From: a virus
Reading direction: 5' to 3' (one strand)
Virus record (IMG/VR): IMGVR_UViG_3300008267_000463
Span: 1-21,586 of that record
DNA length: 21,586 nucleotides
The position numbers and the translations under genes were made by a program. Numbering within the stretch: position 1 is the stretch's first letter; each line of letters starts with the position of its first letter. The notes under the pieces are model-generated. The model worked only from the letters and a program-made list of their open reading frames with translations, was not told where the DNA came from and ran no database searches. This document shows positions 3,750 to 18,282 of the stretch, piece after piece.

Positions 3750-6467
3750 TTACTTTCTATTAAAAAAAAATTGGTCTCCAGTTGGTGTTGTACAACAAGA
3801 CCTACCCTTATAACCGCCACCACTTCTATAATCAAACATTTTTAATAATATACTATTATCACCTTTTGCCATATCAGCAAGACCAGTAGCAGTTAATTTA
3901 CACCCAACTCCTATTTCACCAGTAAAAGGGTCTTTAATGCCACTTACACGTGTTGTAAAATTTTCTATACAGTTTGAACCATCTTTTGTTACAACTGCTT
4001 TTCCTCCAGTACCATAGAACATAGCAAATTGAAGGAAATAACTACCAGAACCAACTGGTATTTCTAATGGTTGTAAAATAGGTCCTCTAGTTACACTACC
4101 ACTATAAAGGTCTTGGGATAATTCTTTTAACACCCATGTACATGCTACATGACAACTACATTGGTTTGTTTTACAACAAATATAACCACTAGTTCCCATA
4201 TTAATATTTTCCTCAAAAGCACCATCAAATTGTGAATACATAAATTCAGAAACACCACCCAACGCTGTACAACATTCTTTATCAATAAATGATGTTTGTT
4301 TTAATCTAACTATTTCATTTTGTTGGTCATATACATTCTCAGTAACAACATAAAAACCAGTAGTTTCATCTACATATGGTTCTGAACTACCACCTAAATT
4401 TTTACATGGTTGTGTTATCGGTTGACCTTTTTCAACACAAACGCTTAAAATATCATCTTCACCTTCACATGGACAACCACAAGGTGTTAATATAGGTTCT
4501 GGCATCGGGTCTTTTATAATTTCTGATTGGTAAACAACACAGTTTCCAATATCTGTATTATCACTAGCTACTATATCAACGTATGTTGGTCCTTTATAAT
4601 CAGTAATAACACCTTGAGAGTAATTTGTAAATATATTTTTTTCACTAGTTAATGGTTCGTCAACACTTATTGTTACAGCTGAAAAATTAGGGATAAGTTT
4701 TCTAAATTGGTTGATATATTTGTATCCACCATCATAACCACCAGCATGTGGGTTATTACCAGCTAAAATATCTATAGTGGCACCAGTACCACCAGTTTCT
4801 CTATACCATAAACCATTATTTTGAAAATACATATCTGGTGTGTCTGGTAATGTTGTTGGGTAACCGTCTGAATCAATAGGATAAAGAGTTAAATCTGTAT
4901 CTAATCCATTTTGTTCTAATACTTTAACAAATATATCAACATCCAATGGAGCGTTAGCTCTATAGATGTACTCATTAAATGTTATTAACCCTTTTGGTAT
5001 ACCCATAAAATTAACTAAAAACTCTATTGATTTTCTAGCACCTTTTGATTTCCAAATCCATGGTGAATTTAATATTAATCTTCTCCATAATTCAATATCA
5101 GTTTCAACTGGTGTTAAACCAACTGATTGACCAGCAAAAGTAGATTCACCGTTATTTACATAGTTGTTAAGTAAATTATCTCCAACAATAGTAGAAACTA
5201 ATTCCCAACCTAAAACTCTAGCTAAATCTTTTAAATATTTATCTGGTGTATTGTCTTGTTTATCATAAGTAACAGTATGTGCAAATGAAATACCTTGAAT
5301 GAATTGATTCAAATCATCAAAAGACCTACCATATATATTAAGTGTTTTATTAACTTTTTGTCCAGTTGTTGTATCTTGATGTGCTTCATCTAAATGTACT
5401 GGTGTTGTATCAAAAGCAGAAATTGAGTCTGACACTAAAAATCTACTCATTAAATTTGTTTCATTCAAATCGTAATTTGTAGCAATTTTTAATAATTGAG
5501 TCGCATATTCAGTATAGTCCGCAGTGTCAAAATCAATATTGTACCCATCACTAACTGGCCAAGTCAATGATTTTGTTGTATACAAAACCATTCCACTGTC
5601 AGTTCTAGTAGGATACTCAAATGTTGCTTTATATAATGGTAATGATTGTCTATTTAATAGATATTCACCTAACCCAGTTAAACTGTTAAAGAATGTATTT
5701 TCAACTACCTTTTTTGGTTTTATGTGGTAGTAAATGTTTGATGTAGTACCTCCAGTAAAAGGATTACCTTTAACTTTAAAATAAATGTAATCGTTAATTT
5801 CAAATGTAGAACCAGTAAAAGATAAAACATCGTACTCTAAATCATTAAATAAAATAGCATATGAACCATAATTCATGGTCATATTTCTTAAATCATTTGT
5901 TTCATTAAATGTGTCAATAATAGTACCATTAGTTAAAAAATTTATTTGATACTGATTAATTAAGAACGTTGTGTTAACTTTAAAATTACTCTCATTTGTT
6001 GCTAAATCATAAGTGTAATCTTCATAAGTATTGCCGACATAATCACTACCATCAATATTAACAAATGGAGATGCATATAAAGATGCTGGCCATTTTGTAA
6101 TAATTTCTTCTAAAACTATCCTCATGTATTCAGTCATAGAACCGAATAAAGCATAATTTTTTAATTTAGAAGTATCTAAATTTAAAAAAGTAGATATATT
6201 ATTTTGTAATAAAACTTGTGTTTCTAAAACACTTAAATTCAAATTATCTAATGTGACAAAATCAGAAAATTTACCAGTAACATAGTTTTTATCAATTTTA
6301 GGGTCCAAGTTAGTGGTAATTGAAAAATTACCCATAGTAAATAAGGGTGTACCACCATTACTGGCTAATTGTACACCTACTAAATCTGGACTAAAATTTC
6401 TATATTCAATATTACCATCATATGATGTTTTTTGTGAATATCCAGCTACTTTTATTTTCTTTGCCAT
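3750..6467 (-). CDS. 905-aa baseplate/fibre-connector protein with a tail-protein-I-like stretch and Cys-rich C-terminus
   Basis: No full-length family is recognised. Residues about 450-503 contain WRRLILNSPWIWKSKGARKS followed by a hydrophobic helix and GIP. This has the R-R...W-K-S-K-G-x-R-K-x-I-E pattern that I associate with P2 gpI-like tail proteins and related baseplate-to-fibre connectors; it is the only functional clue. The region before it is a long acidic, beta-prone N-terminal part. The C-terminal third is Cys-rich: CGCPC at 663-667, CC at 732-733, 764-765 and 891-892, plus C770, C772 and C776. Two partly similar Cys-LGG units (about 688 and 732) precede it. The start ATG at 6467 follows the preceding stop by 8 bases (TAATAAATAAG leader, no Shine-Dalgarno). 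The stop is TAA. Its place between smaller unknown tail proteins and the giant fibre-like gene fits a connector role. Confidence 0.88.
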   Translation of the reverse strand: MAKKIKVAGYSQKTSYDGNIEYRNFSPDLVGVQLASNGGTPLFTMGNFSITTNLDPKIDKNYVTGKFSDFVTLDNLNLSVLETQVLLQNNISTFLNLDTSKLKNYALFGSMTEYMRIVLEEIITKWPASLYASPFVNIDGSDYVGNTYEDYTYDLATNESNFKVNTTFLINQYQINFLTNGTIIDTFNETNDLRNMTMNYGSYAILFNDLEYDVLSFTGSTFEINDYIYFKVKGNPFTGGTTSNIYYHIKPKKVVENTFFNSLTGLGEYLLNRQSLPLYKATFEYPTRTDSGMVLYTTKSLTWPVSDGYNIDFDTADYTEYATQLLKIATNYDLNETNLMSRFLVSDSISAFDTTPVHLDEAHQDTTTGQKVNKTLNIYGRSFDDLNQFIQGISFAHTVTYDKQDNTPDKYLKDLARVLGWELVSTIVGDNLLNNYVNNGESTFAGQSVGLTPVETDIELWRRLILNSPWIWKSKGARKSIEFLVNFMGIPKGLITFNEYIYRANAPLDVDIFVKVLEQNGLDTDLTLYPIDSDGYPTTLPDTPDMYFQNNGLWYRETGGTGATIDILAGNNPHAGGYDGGYKYINQFRKLIPNFSAVTISVDEPLTSEKNIFTNYSQGVITDYKGPTYVDIVASDNTDIGNCVVYQSEIIKDPMPEPILTPCGCPCEGEDDILSVCVEKGQPITQPCKNLGGSSEPYVDETTGFYVVTENVYDQQNEIVRLKQTSFIDKECCTALGGVSEFMYSQFDGAFEENINMGTSGYICCKTNQCSCHVACTWVLKELSQDLYSGSVTRGPILQPLEIPVGSGSYFLQFAMFYGTGGKAVVTKDGSNCIENFTTRVSGIKDPFTGEIGVGCKLTATGLADMAKGDNSILLKMFDYRSGGGYKGRSCCTTPTGDQFFFNRK

Positions 6468-11095: not shown

Positions 11096-14000
11096 TTATG
11101 TTGTTAATGTTATTGTACAACCTACATTATCAGTTATTGTTTTTGTTTGTAATGCTGGTGGATAAGCCGAACAGAAGCTAGGGTTAGTAACTGTACCAGC
11201 ATTAATATTTGTATTAACCGAATTACCATCGCTTGATGTATAAGGTGAGAATCCTCCACTAACATTAATCTTATAATAACAATAAGTAGTTGAACCAACA
11301 GTTGTATTACTTCTAGTTATACTTCCATTCAATGCAACAGTAGGCATTGCTATTGTAAATGAACCACTATTAGTACAACCTTTATTATCAGTTATTGTAT
11401 ATGTTATAACAGCCGAACTAGAAACACTTGGCATAGTTGCATTTATTACTTGTTGATTAGATGTAATCGTTTCAGTAAAGAATGAACTAGTACCAGTTGG
11501 ACCAGAGCCATTTATTTTAAATTTAAACGTATATGGTGCACGTTCTGTATAAAAACTATTAACTGACCAATGTGAAACATTAAATTTAAACGTAACAACA
11601 TTAGGGTTACATTGTTTTGTGTTATCAATACCACTAAAGTTTATACCTAATGTTGTGTTTGGTAATCTAATTGCTGATTCAAGCATTTCTAATTCATTAC
11701 TAAAACATAATCCATCAACTGACTTAAATCTTAAATACATTTTACCATTACTTAAAGCAGAACCAGGAACAGTCACATATACATACGTAGAACCGTTTAT
11801 ATAAGCTGTTGATGATGTTAAATTATTCCAAATTAAATCACCAGCACTATCATTTGCTCTATTAATATTATATTGTACACCAATATTTAAAGGTGGTGTA
11901 GAACCAACTGGGATAGGTGCACCAGCTTGTACATAAAATGGAATTATATAATTGTTAGGGTCACATTGTCTAGCTAAATCAGCTGATGCAGCCATTGCTG
12001 AAATCATTTGAGGATTATTACTATCAACATTAAAACTAAATGTAGCAGTAGTATTATAAGCATCTACAACAGTTGCTTGATAAGCACCTCTATATAACTC
12101 AATTGCTGATGTAGTTATGTTTTGATAACCAGCTGGACCAGTAACATTTACTTCATATGGTGATTTACCACCAGTTATTTTTAATTTATATTCACCATCT
12201 TTGGTTTCCCAACATGTTGTTTTCTTAAAAGTGTCTAGTGTTATAACAACTGGTGTTGGACCATCAACAACTAAATCATATATTGTTATATTTGTGGTAC
12301 CATCACTCAAAACTAATTTATAACCAAAATGTTCATTTGGTGGTAGTAATCCATTTGAAGTAGTATCAGCTTCTAACCCAGCTATAATCATTGGGGTTGA
12401 AGTTACACCACCAGAACCTCTTACAGCACCATTGCTTTTATATAATGTATAAGTCCATGTCCCAGAACCACCACCAATACTAGAAATTGTTATTTCACCA
12501 TCAACAGCTGAAGCTGAAGTACACATTTTTGTCACACCAGCACCCCCGTAAAAAGGTGGTGGACCATCAATACTAACTGTTTGAGTCACAACGTTACCAT
12601 TTGCATCTATAACTTCAATTGTATATTGTCCTTGTGGTCCGCTTATTGTTTTTGGAATTGGTTGTCCAGTTGCTGGGTCCATTACTAAAGTACCAGTACT
12701 ATTTAATCCACCAGGTCCACTTATCGTATATGTAAATGGTGCTGTACCAGAAACAACTGTGAACGTAATAGAACCATTTGCACTATTTGAAGCCGCTATT
12801 GAACTAGATGTGATATTAAATTCTTTTTCACTAACTGGAACGCATTTAGTGAAAAATCTTTGATTTAATTTATCTAAACCAGATTTCCCTGGTAAAATAC
12901 CAAAATAAAAGAAATAAGAATTTTTAGGTTGTAAGTAACTAGATGCAGCTCCAGATGGATAACCTCTAAATCTTATATAATCAGCACCGTTTTGTGAGTT
13001 TCCAGCAAAATCATAAGTTGGTGCATTACTTATATTAAAATCTGTTGTAAATGTAGCACCATGATTAAAAGTTGTTACACTATTTGGTAAATCTTTATTC
13101 AATTCAAAAATTACATCTCTAAACCATTTACCACCATTTTCGTCAATATCATTTTTACCTAAAATACCATCTGGTGGAATCGGGTTACCAGCTAAATCAT
13201 AATCTAATTCATCTAAATCAACACCCATTTCACACATGTGTCTAATATTTAAAACTTGTGTAGAATTAGAGTGTACACCTAAACAATCTACTTCAAAGAA
13301 TAACCCAGGTAATGCAGTATCTATACCACATTGACCATTAGTTTCAACTGTTGTTTTGTCATCTGATAATTCTTGTATATCTGGTGGTATTTTATATGAT
13401 GTTGGTATAAGTAAAGATTGTATTTTTGGTATTCCTTGCCAATCACAATCAAAAACAGAACCTAAACAAAGAATATCAGTTGCGAATAATTTGTTCGATA
13501 CAGTATGTGTTGTTGCTGCATAATAGAACTCTTCACCTATTTTTTTACCATCCAAATAAGAATCAATTTTTTTAATAAGACCTTCTTGTAACCCAACATA
13601 ATGAAAACTTTTTTGTGAGTTATTACCAGATGGATAACATAAATCAACCAAATAATTATTTCGGCAGTTATTATCACCAACACCGTTTTTATTTCCATCA
13701 ACACCACCTTGACTGAAAAAATTTGGGTTACAATCGTATTCACAAAATAACTCCCTACCTTTCTTTTTTTTCTTATATTTCAATAAGAAACCATATAAAG
13801 TACCATGTACCCAATCATTATAAAAATCAAATTGGAATAAACCCATACTTTTAGCCATTTCAAAAGCCAAACAGTTATCTAAACCAACTAAATCACCAAA
13901 ACCATTTCCATGGTCACCATCATTAGGATAATGAGATAATTCTGTTGGTTTAGTTGCTTCAAATCCTTTAGAATCTGGTTTACAACCTGGTGCAAAATAA

Positions 14001-15658
14001 GTCCCACTATCAGCTGGACATTGAACATATAAACATTGTACGTAAGGAATTGGGTCAATTTCCATTCCACAAAAAACCTTTAAAAAACCAAAAGGACAGA
14101 TTGTATATCCGAGAAGTGAAAAACAATTACCACCAGCTCTACAAAATGCACCAACAATAGAATTCCAAAAATTTATTAATTTGTTAACTATTGTTATCAT
14201 AAAATTTATGATTTTTATTATGAATGCATTCATAACATAAATCAAAAACCCAACAATTTTAATTATTAAACAAATAATAAAAAATATTGCTGAAATTTCT
14301 GTGTTTACTCTATTAAAAGGGAATGGATTTTTATCACCAGCACATTTGTCAACATTTTTAACAGCTGTTGCTGCTCTTTTCCATGGTGGTAACACGTTTG
14401 TTTGAAAGCGTGAAATAAAATTACTAACAGTATATATTTTATTCCAATATAAACTCCTAAAACTACTTTTTTTAGTGGTTTCGTCAAATTTATAATCAAT
14501 TTCAGTTGAATTTTTAGGATTGTTTGGTACTAAAAATTTAGCTCTTGTTCTAAGTCTACCTTCACCACCAGTATTTTCCATACCAATTTTAAATCTAACA
14601 CTAGCTCTAGTTGGTATTCCTTTGTTAGGGTCATCAGAAGGAATCAAGTTACCATTTTCATCGGTAACAACATAATCTAAATTCATAGGAATTTGATAAG
14701 CCCATGTACCATCAGCATCAATTAATTGACCACCATCTACATCAAATTGTTCAATACCACCATCTATTGTCTCTCGAATCATTTGTATTGTACCTTCACC
14801 AGCAACTTGGTCACAAAGTTCACCTAAATCTTTTCTAGGTCTACATAATTTATTAACACTATTTTTATCTTGGTCACCAAATATGCTACCCATAAACATA
14901 GCAGAAGGTATAATATTGTAATTCATATCAATATCAGCTCTACTAATACCTATTTCACAAGTTTCTTGTTCACCCCAAAATGGTTGTACGTTTACTGAAT
15001 AATTTGTAGATTTAACTTGAACCAATTTATCTAAATTTGTATCACCTTTATATTTTGTAGGACTTTCAAAAAATTTAGCTGGTGTACCTTGACTGATTAA
15101 GTCATAAGGTCTTTGTGATGCAATCCCAATATCTGAAATATCAGCGTCAACATGAATTGTATATGTACCTAGTGGTACACCAAATATCATAAAATCACCA
15201 GCACTATTTGTAGTGGTTGTAAATTTATAATATTTGCAATATACGTGTTCTAATTCTTCGTTGTCTAATATTTCTCTTTTGTTTGGAAAAGTACCAATTG
15301 GTGTATAACAGTCATTATTTGTTTCACTATTTTTTGGTAAAAGATTATATCTAATACCATCACTATCTTTATCAGTAACAATACTATAAGGATACAAACC
15401 TTTAATTACTGTATCATTTTTATCTTCGTCATCAATAGGTAAAAATATACTAACTTTGGCGTTTGGTAAACCAAACCCACTATTTATTATAACTCTACCT
15501 ACTACGACACCATAATCTGAACAAAAATTTCTATAAGCTTCTTCTTGTGTTATTTTCATTGAAAGAACTTCAATGAAATCAAACTCTTGCTCTATTTTAA
15601 CTTTAAGATATTTATCTGAACCATTTGGTGTTGTTCTTATTCTTATTGTTTCTGACAT
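11096..15658 (-). CDS. 1520-aa multidomain baseplate/tail protein with a hydrophobic segment and SprB-like repeats
   Basis: Domains in order: (a) about 50-172, a carboxypeptidase-regulatory-like beta domain, visible as VVVGRVIINSGFGLPNAKVS at its start and GDFMIFGVPLGTYTIHVD at its end; (b) about 454-503, a strongly hydrophobic helix or helices beginning EISAIFFIICLIIKIVGFLI, with Asn/Thr at 485, 489, 492, 496 and 499; (c) a Cys-rich region (C506, C512, C521, C530, C542, C547, C559); (d) a basic run YKKKKKGR at 628-635; (e) about 945-1520, at least five SprB/Ig-like repeats with G-x-x-P-[FY]-T/E and [GQ]-x-Y-x-x-x-V-x-D motifs. It follows gp25- and gp6-like genes, the place of gp7 in T4, but I see no gp7 similarity. 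The start ATG at 15658 has an A/T-only leader. It is probably a large peripheral baseplate or adhesin protein. A membrane-active segment in a virion protein is unusual. Confidence 0.9.
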   Translation of the reverse strand: MSETIRIRTTPNGSDKYLKVKIEQEFDFIEVLSMKITQEEAYRNFCSDYGVVVGRVIINSGFGLPNAKVSIFLPIDDEDKNDTVIKGLYPYSIVTDKDSDGIRYNLLPKNSETNNDCYTPIGTFPNKREILDNEELEHVYCKYYKFTTTTNSAGDFMIFGVPLGTYTIHVDADISDIGIASQRPYDLISQGTPAKFFESPTKYKGDTNLDKLVQVKSTNYSVNVQPFWGEQETCEIGISRADIDMNYNIIPSAMFMGSIFGDQDKNSVNKLCRPRKDLGELCDQVAGEGTIQMIRETIDGGIEQFDVDGGQLIDADGTWAYQIPMNLDYVVTDENGNLIPSDDPNKGIPTRASVRFKIGMENTGGEGRLRTRAKFLVPNNPKNSTEIDYKFDETTKKSSFRSLYWNKIYTVSNFISRFQTNVLPPWKRAATAVKNVDKCAGDKNPFPFNRVNTEISAIFFIICLIIKIVGFLIYVMNAFIIKIINFMITIVNKLINFWNSIVGAFCRAGGNCFSLLGYTICPFGFLKVFCGMEIDPIPYVQCLYVQCPADSGTYFAPGCKPDSKGFEATKPTELSHYPNDGDHGNGFGDLVGLDNCLAFEMAKSMGLFQFDFYNDWVHGTLYGFLLKYKKKKKGRELFCEYDCNPNFFSQGGVDGNKNGVGDNNCRNNYLVDLCYPSGNNSQKSFHYVGLQEGLIKKIDSYLDGKKIGEEFYYAATTHTVSNKLFATDILCLGSVFDCDWQGIPKIQSLLIPTSYKIPPDIQELSDDKTTVETNGQCGIDTALPGLFFEVDCLGVHSNSTQVLNIRHMCEMGVDLDELDYDLAGNPIPPDGILGKNDIDENGGKWFRDVIFELNKDLPNSVTTFNHGATFTTDFNISNAPTYDFAGNSQNGADYIRFRGYPSGAASSYLQPKNSYFFYFGILPGKSGLDKLNQRFFTKCVPVSEKEFNITSSSIAASNSANGSITFTVVSGTAPFTYTISGPGGLNSTGTLVMDPATGQPIPKTISGPQGQYTIEVIDANGNVVTQTVSIDGPPPFYGGAGVTKMCTSASAVDGEITISSIGGGSGTWTYTLYKSNGAVRGSGGVTSTPMIIAGLEADTTSNGLLPPNEHFGYKLVLSDGTTNITIYDLVVDGPTPVVITLDTFKKTTCWETKDGEYKLKITGGKSPYEVNVTGPAGYQNITTSAIELYRGAYQATVVDAYNTTATFSFNVDSNNPQMISAMAASADLARQCDPNNYIIPFYVQAGAPIPVGSTPPLNIGVQYNINRANDSAGDLIWNNLTSSTAYINGSTYVYVTVPGSALSNGKMYLRFKSVDGLCFSNELEMLESAIRLPNTTLGINFSGIDNTKQCNPNVVTFKFNVSHWSVNSFYTERAPYTFKFKINGSGPTGTSSFFTETITSNQQVINATMPSVSSSAVITYTITDNKGCTNSGSFTIAMPTVALNGSITRSNTTVGSTTYCYYKINVSGGFSPYTSSDGNSVNTNINAGTVTNPSFCSAYPPALQTKTITDNVGCTITLTT
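11099..12826 (-). repeat. Array of SprB/Ig-like repeats within the 1520-aa protein
   Basis: Diverged protein repeats of about 75-105 residues. Approximate units by residue are 945-1032, 1040-1133, 1137-1211, 1335-1438 and 1440-1520; 1222-1330 may be a sixth, more diverged unit. Shared signs are a G-x-[AS]-P-[FY] turn near the first third and a GxYxxxVxDA or TITDNxGCT strand at the end. The last two end with TITDNKGCT and TITDNVGCT, very close to the SprB consensus of flavobacterial adhesins. The units are too diverged to show as DNA repeats. Confidence 0.7.
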
Positions 15659-15666
15659 ATTAATTT

Positions 15667-16011
15667 TTAATTTTTTTCTGTTATATCTTCAACATCCATC
15701 ATGATAACATCATCTTCTGTTAAATCTTCAAAATCATCATCATCATCATCATCATGTTCATCATCTTTTTTACCGTTAAAATATCTGTTTAATAAGTTTG
15801 CAACATTAACATCTCTTGTTAATACTATAGTGTTAAACATGAACCATATGATAGCTAGATTTATTATTGGTAATAATAAAACACCAACTAAAAATCCTAT
15901 CACTTTGAAAAAATAATGTACAAATAATTTACCTTTTTCTTTGTTTGTTAATTTTGAAAACTTTGTTTTTTCTGGCATTTCAAAACCATCTTTTTTACAA
16001 CCACAACCCAT
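15667..16011 (-). CDS. Small membrane protein, 114 aa, with poly-Asp C-terminal tail
   Basis: It starts MGCGCKKDGFEMPEKTKFSK. Residues about 34-64 are hydrophobic (FFKVIGFLVGVLLLPIINLA then IIWFMFNTIVL), enough for one long or two short membrane spans with a Pro-Ile-Ile-Asn break at 48-51. The N-terminal 30 residues are basic; the C-terminal 33 are strongly acidic with seven consecutive Asp (87-93). The charge distribution suggests both termini may face the cytosol if there are two spans. No lipobox or signal-peptide cleavage site is seen. It sits between the gp6-like gene and the 1520-aa gene that also carries a hydrophobic segment. A holin-like or virion-membrane adaptor role is possible, but neither is supported by similarity I can recognise. 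Confidence 0.84.
   Translation of the reverse strand: MGCGCKKDGFEMPEKTKFSKLTNKEKGKLFVHYFFKVIGFLVGVLLLPIINLAIIWFMFNTIVLTRDVNVANLLNRYFNGKKDDEHDDDDDDDFEDLTEDDVIMMDVEDITEKN
15733..15755. repeat. Trinucleotide microsatellite (ATC)n / (GAT)n
   Basis: Seven full ATC units plus two bases on the plus strand, read as GAT (Asp) codons of the 114-aa membrane protein. Slippage here would lengthen or shorten the acidic tail without breaking the frame. Confidence 0.9.
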
Positions 16012-16076: not shown

Positions 16077-17891
16077 TTATTGTCTTGCCCTAACAAGAAT
16101 ATCTTTTGTTGGGTATTTGATTTCAAACATTGTTGTTGGTTCACCAAACAAAGTCATATCTGAAACATCTATTTGTCTGGTTGCTTCATCAAAATAAGAT
16201 TGTGATATTTCATTAAGACTATATTTACCTTCACCAACTTTATTATAAAACCTTATATCAATAAGATTCAATACACCACCAATATTATTTATTGTTTCAA
16301 TAAGAGGTGATATGTAAATATTTTCACCCATTTCAAACTTGTTAACATCAAAATATTTTTTAACTTCACTAATAACTTGAGACATAACTTGAGATTGTGC
16401 CACTTTTTTATCTATGAATAAATCAATTTCTAAAGATAAGTTAACTATCCTACCATCAGCAATTTGAACATAATCATTCAACATTCTATAATCAGCTAAA
16501 TAATTTGCCATATTTTCTTTCAATGTTGTTGTTGATTGGTTTGTTAATTGACCATTTGCATCTAAATTTAAAACGTATATTTTGACTTTGTTTTGTTCTT
16601 CAAAAACACCACTTCTAAATGGAGAACCAAATCTACCAGGTATTTGAGCAATTTTTGTTTGATAATCTTTTATTGTTACAGCTCTGTTTTGTGATGCAAA
16701 GTTATATCTAACCATATTTCTAATTTCTTCAACACTAGGTTCATTTTTACCACCTATAGCTGGAAATGCGTTGTTAACTTTTAATGACTTTTTAACATTT
16801 TGGTTTATTGTTGAATCACTACCGTTAACGCTCATATCAACAATACCTAACCCTTTAATTACATTTGGTCCTAAATTAGAATCAGAACCACCACCAACTT
16901 TATATTTTATAAACATAGTAGTATTTGGTGTTGGAACAACACCCAATGATAAATTATTGATAAAGTTACCTATTTGTTTAACCAACGCTGGGTTTGTGTC
17001 AAAATCACAAAGACTGTTTATGTCTTGTGTTCCAGCACCAAATGTAATTTTGGTAAAACCTAAATCTGTATATTCTCTTATAAATCTTTTTGACACACTT
17101 ATCCATTTTCCTGGTTTCATACCAGAATTATCACTAGCACGTGTATTGTCTTCTATGAAAACTTTATCTTCAGCCAAAGCATCAACTTCAAACCATCTAT
17201 TATCTATATTTAAAAAATCGCTAAAAGTTGGTGTTGTTGCGTAATTTGTTCCTGGCAATGTTATAATAGAATCAATCATCAATACATCATTATCTGGTAA
17301 TACAACATTTAAAAATGGTATAGCATCATTAGTGTTTATAATTCTTTTTAATATTTTACTGTAACCATTTGTTACCATTTCTCTTTTTGTTATGGTATAA
17401 TTTATCAAAGTACCATTTGAATTAAAGTTAGGTATAATTAAACGATTTGGTATACCACTAATTGAAAAAGGGCTAGAAAAATCAACATCATAATTTAATT
17501 CGAATATTTTACCAGAACCAGAAACTTGAGAACCAGCTCTTATAATTGGAGCATAGGTAACATCAAAAGTATCACCAAATACTGGCAACGTAACACTTAA
17601 ATCTACGATTGTTGCACTGGCTCTTTTTCCTGGCACTTTTAATCCTAATGTTCTAGCAATAGAAAGTATTGATTTTCTTTCTTGTGCATAATCTATTTGA
17701 GTTTCAGCAAACATTCTGTCGGTATTGAATGACAACATATCCCCAACAGCTGCATTTAATTCTAAAAGCATCATACCAACAGATGCATCATTAAAGTCAG
17801 CAAAAACATCTGGGTAATATTGTCTAACATAATTAACTAAATCGGTTCTAATGTTAGCGAAATCTCGTGATGTGTAATTTACATTTGGCAT
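16077..17891 (-). CDS. Baseplate wedge protein, gp6 / baseplate-J-like
   Basis: Baseplate wedge subunit of the type of T4 gp6, which dimerises to form the ring linking wedges around the central hub. The N-terminus NYTSRDFANIRTDLVNYVRQ with YPDVFADFNDASVGMMLLE after it is the characteristic opening of gp6-like wedge proteins. The middle has IKYKVGGGSDSNLGPNVI (328-345), a baseplate-J type strand-GGG-N motif. Residues 394-410 (VRYNFASQNRAVTIKDY) and the region to the end match the conserved C-terminal dimer domain. The length of 604 aa is close to that of T4 gp6 (660 aa). It follows the gp25-like gene by 4 bases, as in T4, where gp25 and gp6 contact each other in the wedge core. The leader is A/T-only. 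I give no symbol because nomenclature differs between phages. Confidence 0.87.
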   Translation of the reverse strand: MPNVNYTSRDFANIRTDLVNYVRQYYPDVFADFNDASVGMMLLELNAAVGDMLSFNTDRMFAETQIDYAQERKSILSIARTLGLKVPGKRASATIVDLSVTLPVFGDTFDVTYAPIIRAGSQVSGSGKIFELNYDVDFSSPFSISGIPNRLIIPNFNSNGTLINYTITKREMVTNGYSKILKRIINTNDAIPFLNVVLPDNDVLMIDSIITLPGTNYATTPTFSDFLNIDNRWFEVDALAEDKVFIEDNTRASDNSGMKPGKWISVSKRFIREYTDLGFTKITFGAGTQDINSLCDFDTNPALVKQIGNFINNLSLGVVPTPNTTMFIKYKVGGGSDSNLGPNVIKGLGIVDMSVNGSDSTINQNVKKSLKVNNAFPAIGGKNEPSVEEIRNMVRYNFASQNRAVTIKDYQTKIAQIPGRFGSPFRSGVFEEQNKVKIYVLNLDANGQLTNQSTTTLKENMANYLADYRMLNDYVQIADGRIVNLSLEIDLFIDKKVAQSQVMSQVISEVKKYFDVNKFEMGENIYISPLIETINNIGGVLNLIDIRFYNKVGEGKYSLNEISQSYFDEATRQIDVSDMTLFGEPTTMFEIKYPTKDILVRARQ

Positions 17892-17895
17892 ATTT

Positions 17896-18282
17896 TTATA
17901 TTTTAACTACTATTATATCAGATGTTGCAAAAACATCGTCAGTTATTGTGTAACTTATTGTTACGACAGCTGCATATTCACTTTCTGGTGAAGCAGAAAT
18001 TATTATATCATCTAATTTTAATTTAGGTAAGAATTTTTTAACTACAGTTCTAATTTCGTCTTTTACACCTTCTTCTGTCAATGCATCATTTGGTTCAAAG
18101 ATAAATTTTATTAAATTAGTACCAAAATCTGGGTTGAATAGTCTTTGACCTCTTGTAGTTAAGATTAAATGTAATAAATCAGCTTTTATAGCTTGATTGT
18201 CGGTTTCTGTTAAATCTAAGAAAAACCCTTTTTTACTATCCTTGAATGGATAATTGATGTTTATATACTTTCCGTCTGCCAT
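17896..18282 (-). CDS. Baseplate wedge protein, GPW/gp25 family
   Basis: A lysozyme-like-fold baseplate protein of the GPW/gp25 family; in T4, gp25 sits next to the tail tube and sheath and helps trigger sheath contraction. The 128-aa length matches the family (T4 gp25 is 132 aa). The family signature is clear at about residues 43-64: TTRGQRLFNPDFGTNLIKFI followed by FEP. The C-terminal strand-rich part ends VTISYTITDDVFATSDIIVV. It is the first gene after the nrdA terminator, so it probably opens the structural operon; the gp6-like gene follows 4 bases after its stop. The start ATG at 18282 has the leader TAATAAATAAAGTT, without a good Shine-Dalgarno. Confidence 0.9.
   Translation of the reverse strand: MADGKYININYPFKDSKKGFFLDLTETDNQAIKADLLHLILTTRGQRLFNPDFGTNLIKFIFEPNDALTEEGVKDEIRTVVKKFLPKLKLDDIIISASPESEYAAVVTISYTITDDVFATSDIIVVKI

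Follow-up and report, generated by a model that had tools for sequence, protein, structure and literature searches.

The window, by which we mean the whole stretch of DNA analysed (21,586 nucleotides, a 21.6-kb virus fragment), was studied entirely in silico. Along its minus strand lie a gp25-like gene, a gp6-like gene, a gene for a small membrane protein and a gene for a giant protein, in that order, with the following features:

17896..18282, minus strand: gp25-like baseplate wedge protein (PF04965, 1.6e-12; phrog_261, 4.6e-22)
16077..17891, minus strand: gp6-like baseplate wedge protein (Baseplate_J; PF04865, 1.9e-6; phrog_219, 2.4e-26)
15667..16011, minus strand: small, putatively single-pass membrane protein of 114 aa (sequence of 149 relatives, adjacency)
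15835-15903, minus strand: predicted transmembrane stretch of the 114-aa protein, residues ~37-59
11096..15658, minus strand: giant tail/baseplate-region protein of 1520 aa, from an uncharacterised family (open reading frame)
14309..15658, minus strand: N-terminal domain of the giant protein, residues 1-450, beta-rich and its best-conserved part (conservation and AF2)
14213..14296, minus strand: core of the hydrophobic segment that is near-universal among relatives, residues 455-482, including Cys463 at 14270-14272 and Asn477 at 14228-14230
14129..14290, minus strand: hydrophobic helix, residues 457-510, single and continuous (AF2, hydropathy, conservation)
12824..14116, minus strand: Cys-rich conserved region, mostly beta, residues 515-945 (Cys density and AF2)
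11099..12823, minus strand: variable adhesin-like C-terminal part, residues 946-1520 (low conservation, SprB-like repeat)

Large relatives carry a T4-type portal gene (12/12) and a sheath gene (10/12), both of which lie outside the window fragment. Together with the gp25- and gp6-like genes, these place the locus in T4-like contractile-tailed phages and the small and giant genes inside a baseplate cluster; the source phages are uncultured T4-like jumbo phages with contractile tails. A 905-aa protein elsewhere in the window (3750-6467), whose LWRRLILNSPWIWKSKGARKSIEFLVNF recalls wedge proteins of the gpI/TssG/gp7 type, was considered and set aside, as it gave no Pfam hit even at E 10 and its alignment to T4 gp7 gave no signal above shuffles.

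Relatives of the giant protein were found in IMG/VR in a first scan (161) and in a profile-guided scan (at least 572), and three further IMG/VR scans recovered rumen and marine-type relatives on contigs of up to 412 kb (habitat mostly inferred). Hundreds of viral contigs carry the family, tblastn with three different family members as queries matched none of the isolate phages searched (INPHARED), and a literature search found no paper on the family or on a hydrophobic segment of this kind. The giant protein matched nothing in PDB, PHROG or NCBIfam, and Pfam returned sub-threshold similarities only: a CarboxypepD_reg-like stretch at residues 146-173 of the N-terminal domain and a SprB-like repeat at residues 959-983 (E=0.00076, 19.5 bits against a cut-off of 28), the latter a resemblance to SprB adhesins only. 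An AF2 monomer model of residues 1-945 built with 55 sequences (pLDDT 85.1, pTM 0.82) is mostly beta in residues 1-450 and 515-945, and a fold search with it against PDB gave only loose beta-sandwich matches (TM ~0.1 by query length). The sole named relative, the uncharacterized protein A0A8S5LA66 of Myoviridae sp. ctPuP5 (a predicted structure in BFVD), is predicted to fold in the same overall way across the 945 residues that were modelled (E=1.9e-83, TM 0.73, 32% identity).

Family members range from ~750 to 3028 aa, and this large variation of the C-terminal part between phages fits a host-facing adhesin, as expected. At the extremes, two members of 3028 and 3019 aa (L250, L252) differ about fourfold in total length from two of 766 and 830 aa (L088, L089). 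The preliminary description had set the hydrophobic segment between a soluble beta domain and an adhesin-like repeat array; the beta domain does precede it and SprB-like repeats do lie beyond, beginning near residue 950, but they are not directly next to it, since the conserved region of residues ~515-945 intervenes. This region is 2.7-fold enriched in Cys (3.5 per 100 aa past the helix versus 1.3 on its N side), which makes disulfides or metal binding possible there. Many Cys columns past the helix (12824-14116) are conserved, including 596, 639, 665, 738, 792 and 939.

Residues 454 and 530 map exactly to 14299 and 14069 on the minus strand, and EISAIFFIICLIIKIVGFLI, quoted earlier for this segment, is present. 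The claim that these residues are as hydrophobic as a transmembrane region was borne out: Kyte-Doolittle hydropathy over 19 residues (KD19) peaks at 2.92 at residues 455-473, the Wimley-White octanol sum over 19 residues of the segment is -13.8 kcal/mol, and the Hessa sum is -3.0, an approximate value obtained by plain addition of published central-position figures. The rest of the giant protein (before residue 430 and after 540) reaches 1.19 at best, and among the window's large proteins the segment is the strongest hydrophobic stretch, the ribonucleotide reductase subunits coming next (~1.9). In 2000 whole-protein shuffles the maximum KD19 averaged 1.83, with a best value of 2.98, so that chance would seldom, though sometimes, produce one 19-mer this hydrophobic; a chance origin is ruled out because relatives conserve the segment. 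AF2 models residues 457-510 as one unbroken helix of 54 residues, with pLDDT ~90 in most blocks and ~79 near its C-terminal end; the Cys/Phe/Gly-rich sequence reported after the segment is indeed there, as a variable stretch outside the helix (residues 511-530). The DNA coding for the helix includes an AT-rich near-palindrome (14205-14248) whose 44 bases are 86% identical to their own reverse complement.

The segment is conserved throughout the family. Far from being absent in all homologues, an outcome that the preliminary description had raised, it is kept at a KD19 of at least 1.68 (median 2.68) in 273 of 274 near-full-length relatives, which correspond to 134 non-redundant representatives (<85% identity over residues 200-440, used for all column statistics) with identities down to ~33%. 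The same loci contain 811 other distinct open reading frames of 350 aa or more, and all of these stay below 2.3, with a maximum of 1.96. The giant protein has, in conserved form, a stretch of 19 or more residues as hydrophobic as a transmembrane helix, which is what an integral membrane protein would show. In relatives the segment nearly always lies shortly past a conserved P-F/Y-N motif. Among the 134 representatives its core is near-invariant, with Cys463 in 95%, Asn477 in 97% and always Phe or Tyr at position 459, and residues 458-480 hold no charged residue or a single one in 91. The part past residue ~483 varies in length and is missing in some members. The hydrophobic run of ~50 residues described before therefore stands for this protein, as the AF2 helix, but only residues ~457-482 are near-universal; this core of ~26 residues is of membrane-compatible length.

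The 114-aa neighbour is, from its sequence, clearly a predicted bitopic membrane protein. It has an M-x-C-x-C-K N-terminus and an acidic C-terminal tail, which is strongly acidic in some relatives. Among 149 non-redundant sequences, C3 is present in all, C5 in 148 and K6 in 140 (94%); positions 37-56 are essentially charge-free and lack a polar stripe, and Pro48 within this stretch occurs in 136 (91%). The window's copy had no clear match in Pfam, PHROGs or NCBIfam. For the family N-terminus, M-G/A/S-C-x-C-K, candidate roles of the CxC include metal, lipid or disulfide.

The small gene lies directly upstream of the giant gene in ~254 of the 272 loci with enough upstream sequence, although partial overlap between family loci makes such counts non-independent, and in three further loci (L239, L245, L249) a single gene separates the two. 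One example of the arrangement is the small gene at L001:5325-5687. About 15 loci are without it (L088, L194, L204, L206, L212, L213, L218, L219, L222, L224, L225, L227, L231, L233 and L237), and all but L088 retain the helix of the giant protein. L088 (L088:2813-5110, 766 aa) is also the sole relative without the helix, the segment being cleanly missing. It lies on a 7-kb MAG contig binned with Ca. Wolfebacteria, with a different upstream neighbourhood, and no small membrane gene was found within its 2.8 kb of upstream DNA; this joint loss, a single case on a short contig, is at most suggestive.

The hydrophobic stretch has a median length of 53 residues in members with the small gene; in five members without it (L225:2916-8099, L204, L219, L222 and L224) the stretch is ~61-65 residues long. 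Fusion of the small gene into the giant protein was considered for L204, L219, L224 and L225, which have the longer stretch and a central Pro, and was dropped: the small-protein profile failed to pick these four out, other clades without the small gene show no longer stretch, and a weak AF2 model of L225 (pLDDT 60) shows one helix of 62 residues where a fusion would give a hairpin.

A conserved helix with a membrane-protein neighbour suggests that the base of the tail works in touch with a cell membrane. We consider that the helix and the small protein form a membrane-contact module of the baseplate that acts in the producing cell, and give this reading a probability of about one half. Helix 457-510 would join the conserved N-terminal domain, probably on the baseplate side, to the Cys-rich, adhesin-bearing outer part. 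It would pair with the helix of the small protein, either within the host cytoplasmic membrane or at it, and the pair would hold the nascent baseplate or adhesin there, the small protein perhaps masking the giant protein's helix up to the point at which the particle takes it in. We infer the binding of the two proteins, the entry into the bilayer and the timing at assembly, the last a guess made because the small protein must sit in the membrane of the producing cell. With a predicted membrane protein as neighbour, a membrane role is likelier than it would be from the helix alone, and the Cys enrichment past the helix would be compatible with an extracytoplasmic location of that part. Against this reading, the helix, at ~80 A, exceeds one bilayer, the loci without the small gene keep the helix in all cases but one, and the supporting joint loss in L088 comes from a single short MAG contig.

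The closest functional precedent, by analogy, is CisA of the contractile injection systems of Streptomyces, which like the small neighbour is a membrane protein of a contractile-tail cluster, and which serves the contractile machine from outside it. CisA is bitopic, is needed for firing, is absent from the particle and, by proposal, draws the baseplate up to the membrane (PMC12237407). It is a longer protein of a bacterial system with an extracytoplasmic C-terminal domain (310-468), whereas the window encodes a 114-aa phage protein; the likeness drawn here is one of function.

A contact with the membrane is not the only use to which such a helix could be put. It may instead be a structural helix that stays out of the bilayer altogether, buried in a helical bundle with its own copies, with the gp6-like protein or with the small one, and exposing no more than a narrow polar stripe; we regard this main alternative as a serious possibility, though a doubtful one. 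Average hydropathy along the helix has a strongly amphipathic period of 3.64 that is constant over ~50 residues. Polar residues (460, 467, 471, 474, 478, 485, 489, 496 and others) form a stripe over about a quarter of the circumference, which is the variable face and up to 47% charged; the remainder is a mainly hydrophobic, conserved arc of ~270 degrees. When a helix is embedded in lipid and its inner face is conserved, the moments of hydrophobicity and conservation tend to be opposite. Here the two lie 34-67 degrees apart, nearer parallel than opposite, and the moment test found no lipid-facing ('inside-out') signature. The result leans toward a buried or amphipathic role for the helix, but the test is weak because a measure based on entropy will rate any face confined to I/L/V/F as conserved. 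This pattern, with its variable stripe, counts against the membrane-contact module in so far as a buried helix would show the same, and L225, which has no small gene, is still modelled as a single helix without a hairpin, if in a weaker model.

Burial also has a precedent in T4 gp7, a large protein encoded right after gp6, much as the giant gene follows the gp6-like gene with the small gene between. The C-terminus of gp7 is annotated as a 'predicted integral membrane domain' (KD19 2.07), and the full-length chain is listed in entries for solved baseplates, 5iv5 and 5hx2 among them; 'predicted membrane' stretches can therefore occur in solved baseplates, which again tells against the membrane-contact module. 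With T4 gp29 at 2.20, it was an overstatement that segments of this kind are normally missing from tail and baseplate proteins, although those of T4 are weaker and the segment of the giant protein tops every T4 tail protein tested. The gp7 segment (residues 886-906) is the weaker one and lies near the C-terminus, whereas that of the giant protein is stronger and internal, and in T4, unlike in the window, gp7 follows gp6 without a small membrane gene in between. Homology of the 1520-aa protein to gp7 was rejected (local score 41 against a shuffled mean of 46), and a PDB search with the giant-family profile gave no hit, gp7 included. Burial sits less well with a hydrophobic arc wider than the usual two- or three-stranded coiled coil needs, a hydropathy above that of all 811 large neighbours, a core that is near charge-free in many members and the clear membrane protein encoded alongside.

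It is improbable that the helix instead acts at infection, as part of a virion protein whose helices are freed by receptor binding or contraction to form a plug or DNA conduit in the host envelope. Its place between the conserved N-terminal domain and the adhesin-like repeats would suit such a role, and transmembrane-like helices tied to genome delivery occur in tape measure proteins and in T7 gp14/gp16 (PMC5099701, PMC8954989), the membrane segments of gp16 being folded inside the particle and exposed on ejection (PMC8954989). The giant family differs from these in being beta-rich, with adhesin-like repeats and a gene just past the gp25 and gp6-like genes, and nothing marks it as a tape measure protein: apart from one long helix, AF2 models residues 1-945 as mainly beta, and PHROGs gave no match. 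Insertion at infection also leaves the small membrane protein unexplained, which must insert in the producing cell unless packaged, and in the tape measure protein (TMP) of TP901-1 such regions could not be linked to insertion (PMC5099701). Least probable is a segment that serves to recruit a partner for folding or assembly, the small protein perhaps, and that plays no part at a membrane once the phage is complete: TMP hydrophobic regions have been associated with chaperone binding (PMC5099701) and a possible partner gene is adjacent, but this candidate is itself transmembrane and would still place the action at a membrane.

If the membrane-contact module is real, a further and more tentative step is that a widespread T4-like jumbo lineage uses a dedicated two-part membrane module to assemble or fire its tails on the host cytoplasmic membrane. 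To our knowledge, no such module is known for phage contractile tails. How contractile tails make contact with the inner membrane or get across it is a partly open question, and a 2010 review of T4 left unsettled both the spike-tip protein and what becomes of gp27 (PMC3004832). The conserved helix and its dedicated membrane protein, which belong to families of giant tail proteins and small neighbours that carry no annotation at all, offer two defined genes for testing membrane involvement. Relatives of the giant protein also occur in seven bacterial assemblies, with Bacteroidales, Paludibacteraceae and further Bacteroidota bins among them, a hint that the phages carrying the family have Bacteroidota hosts.
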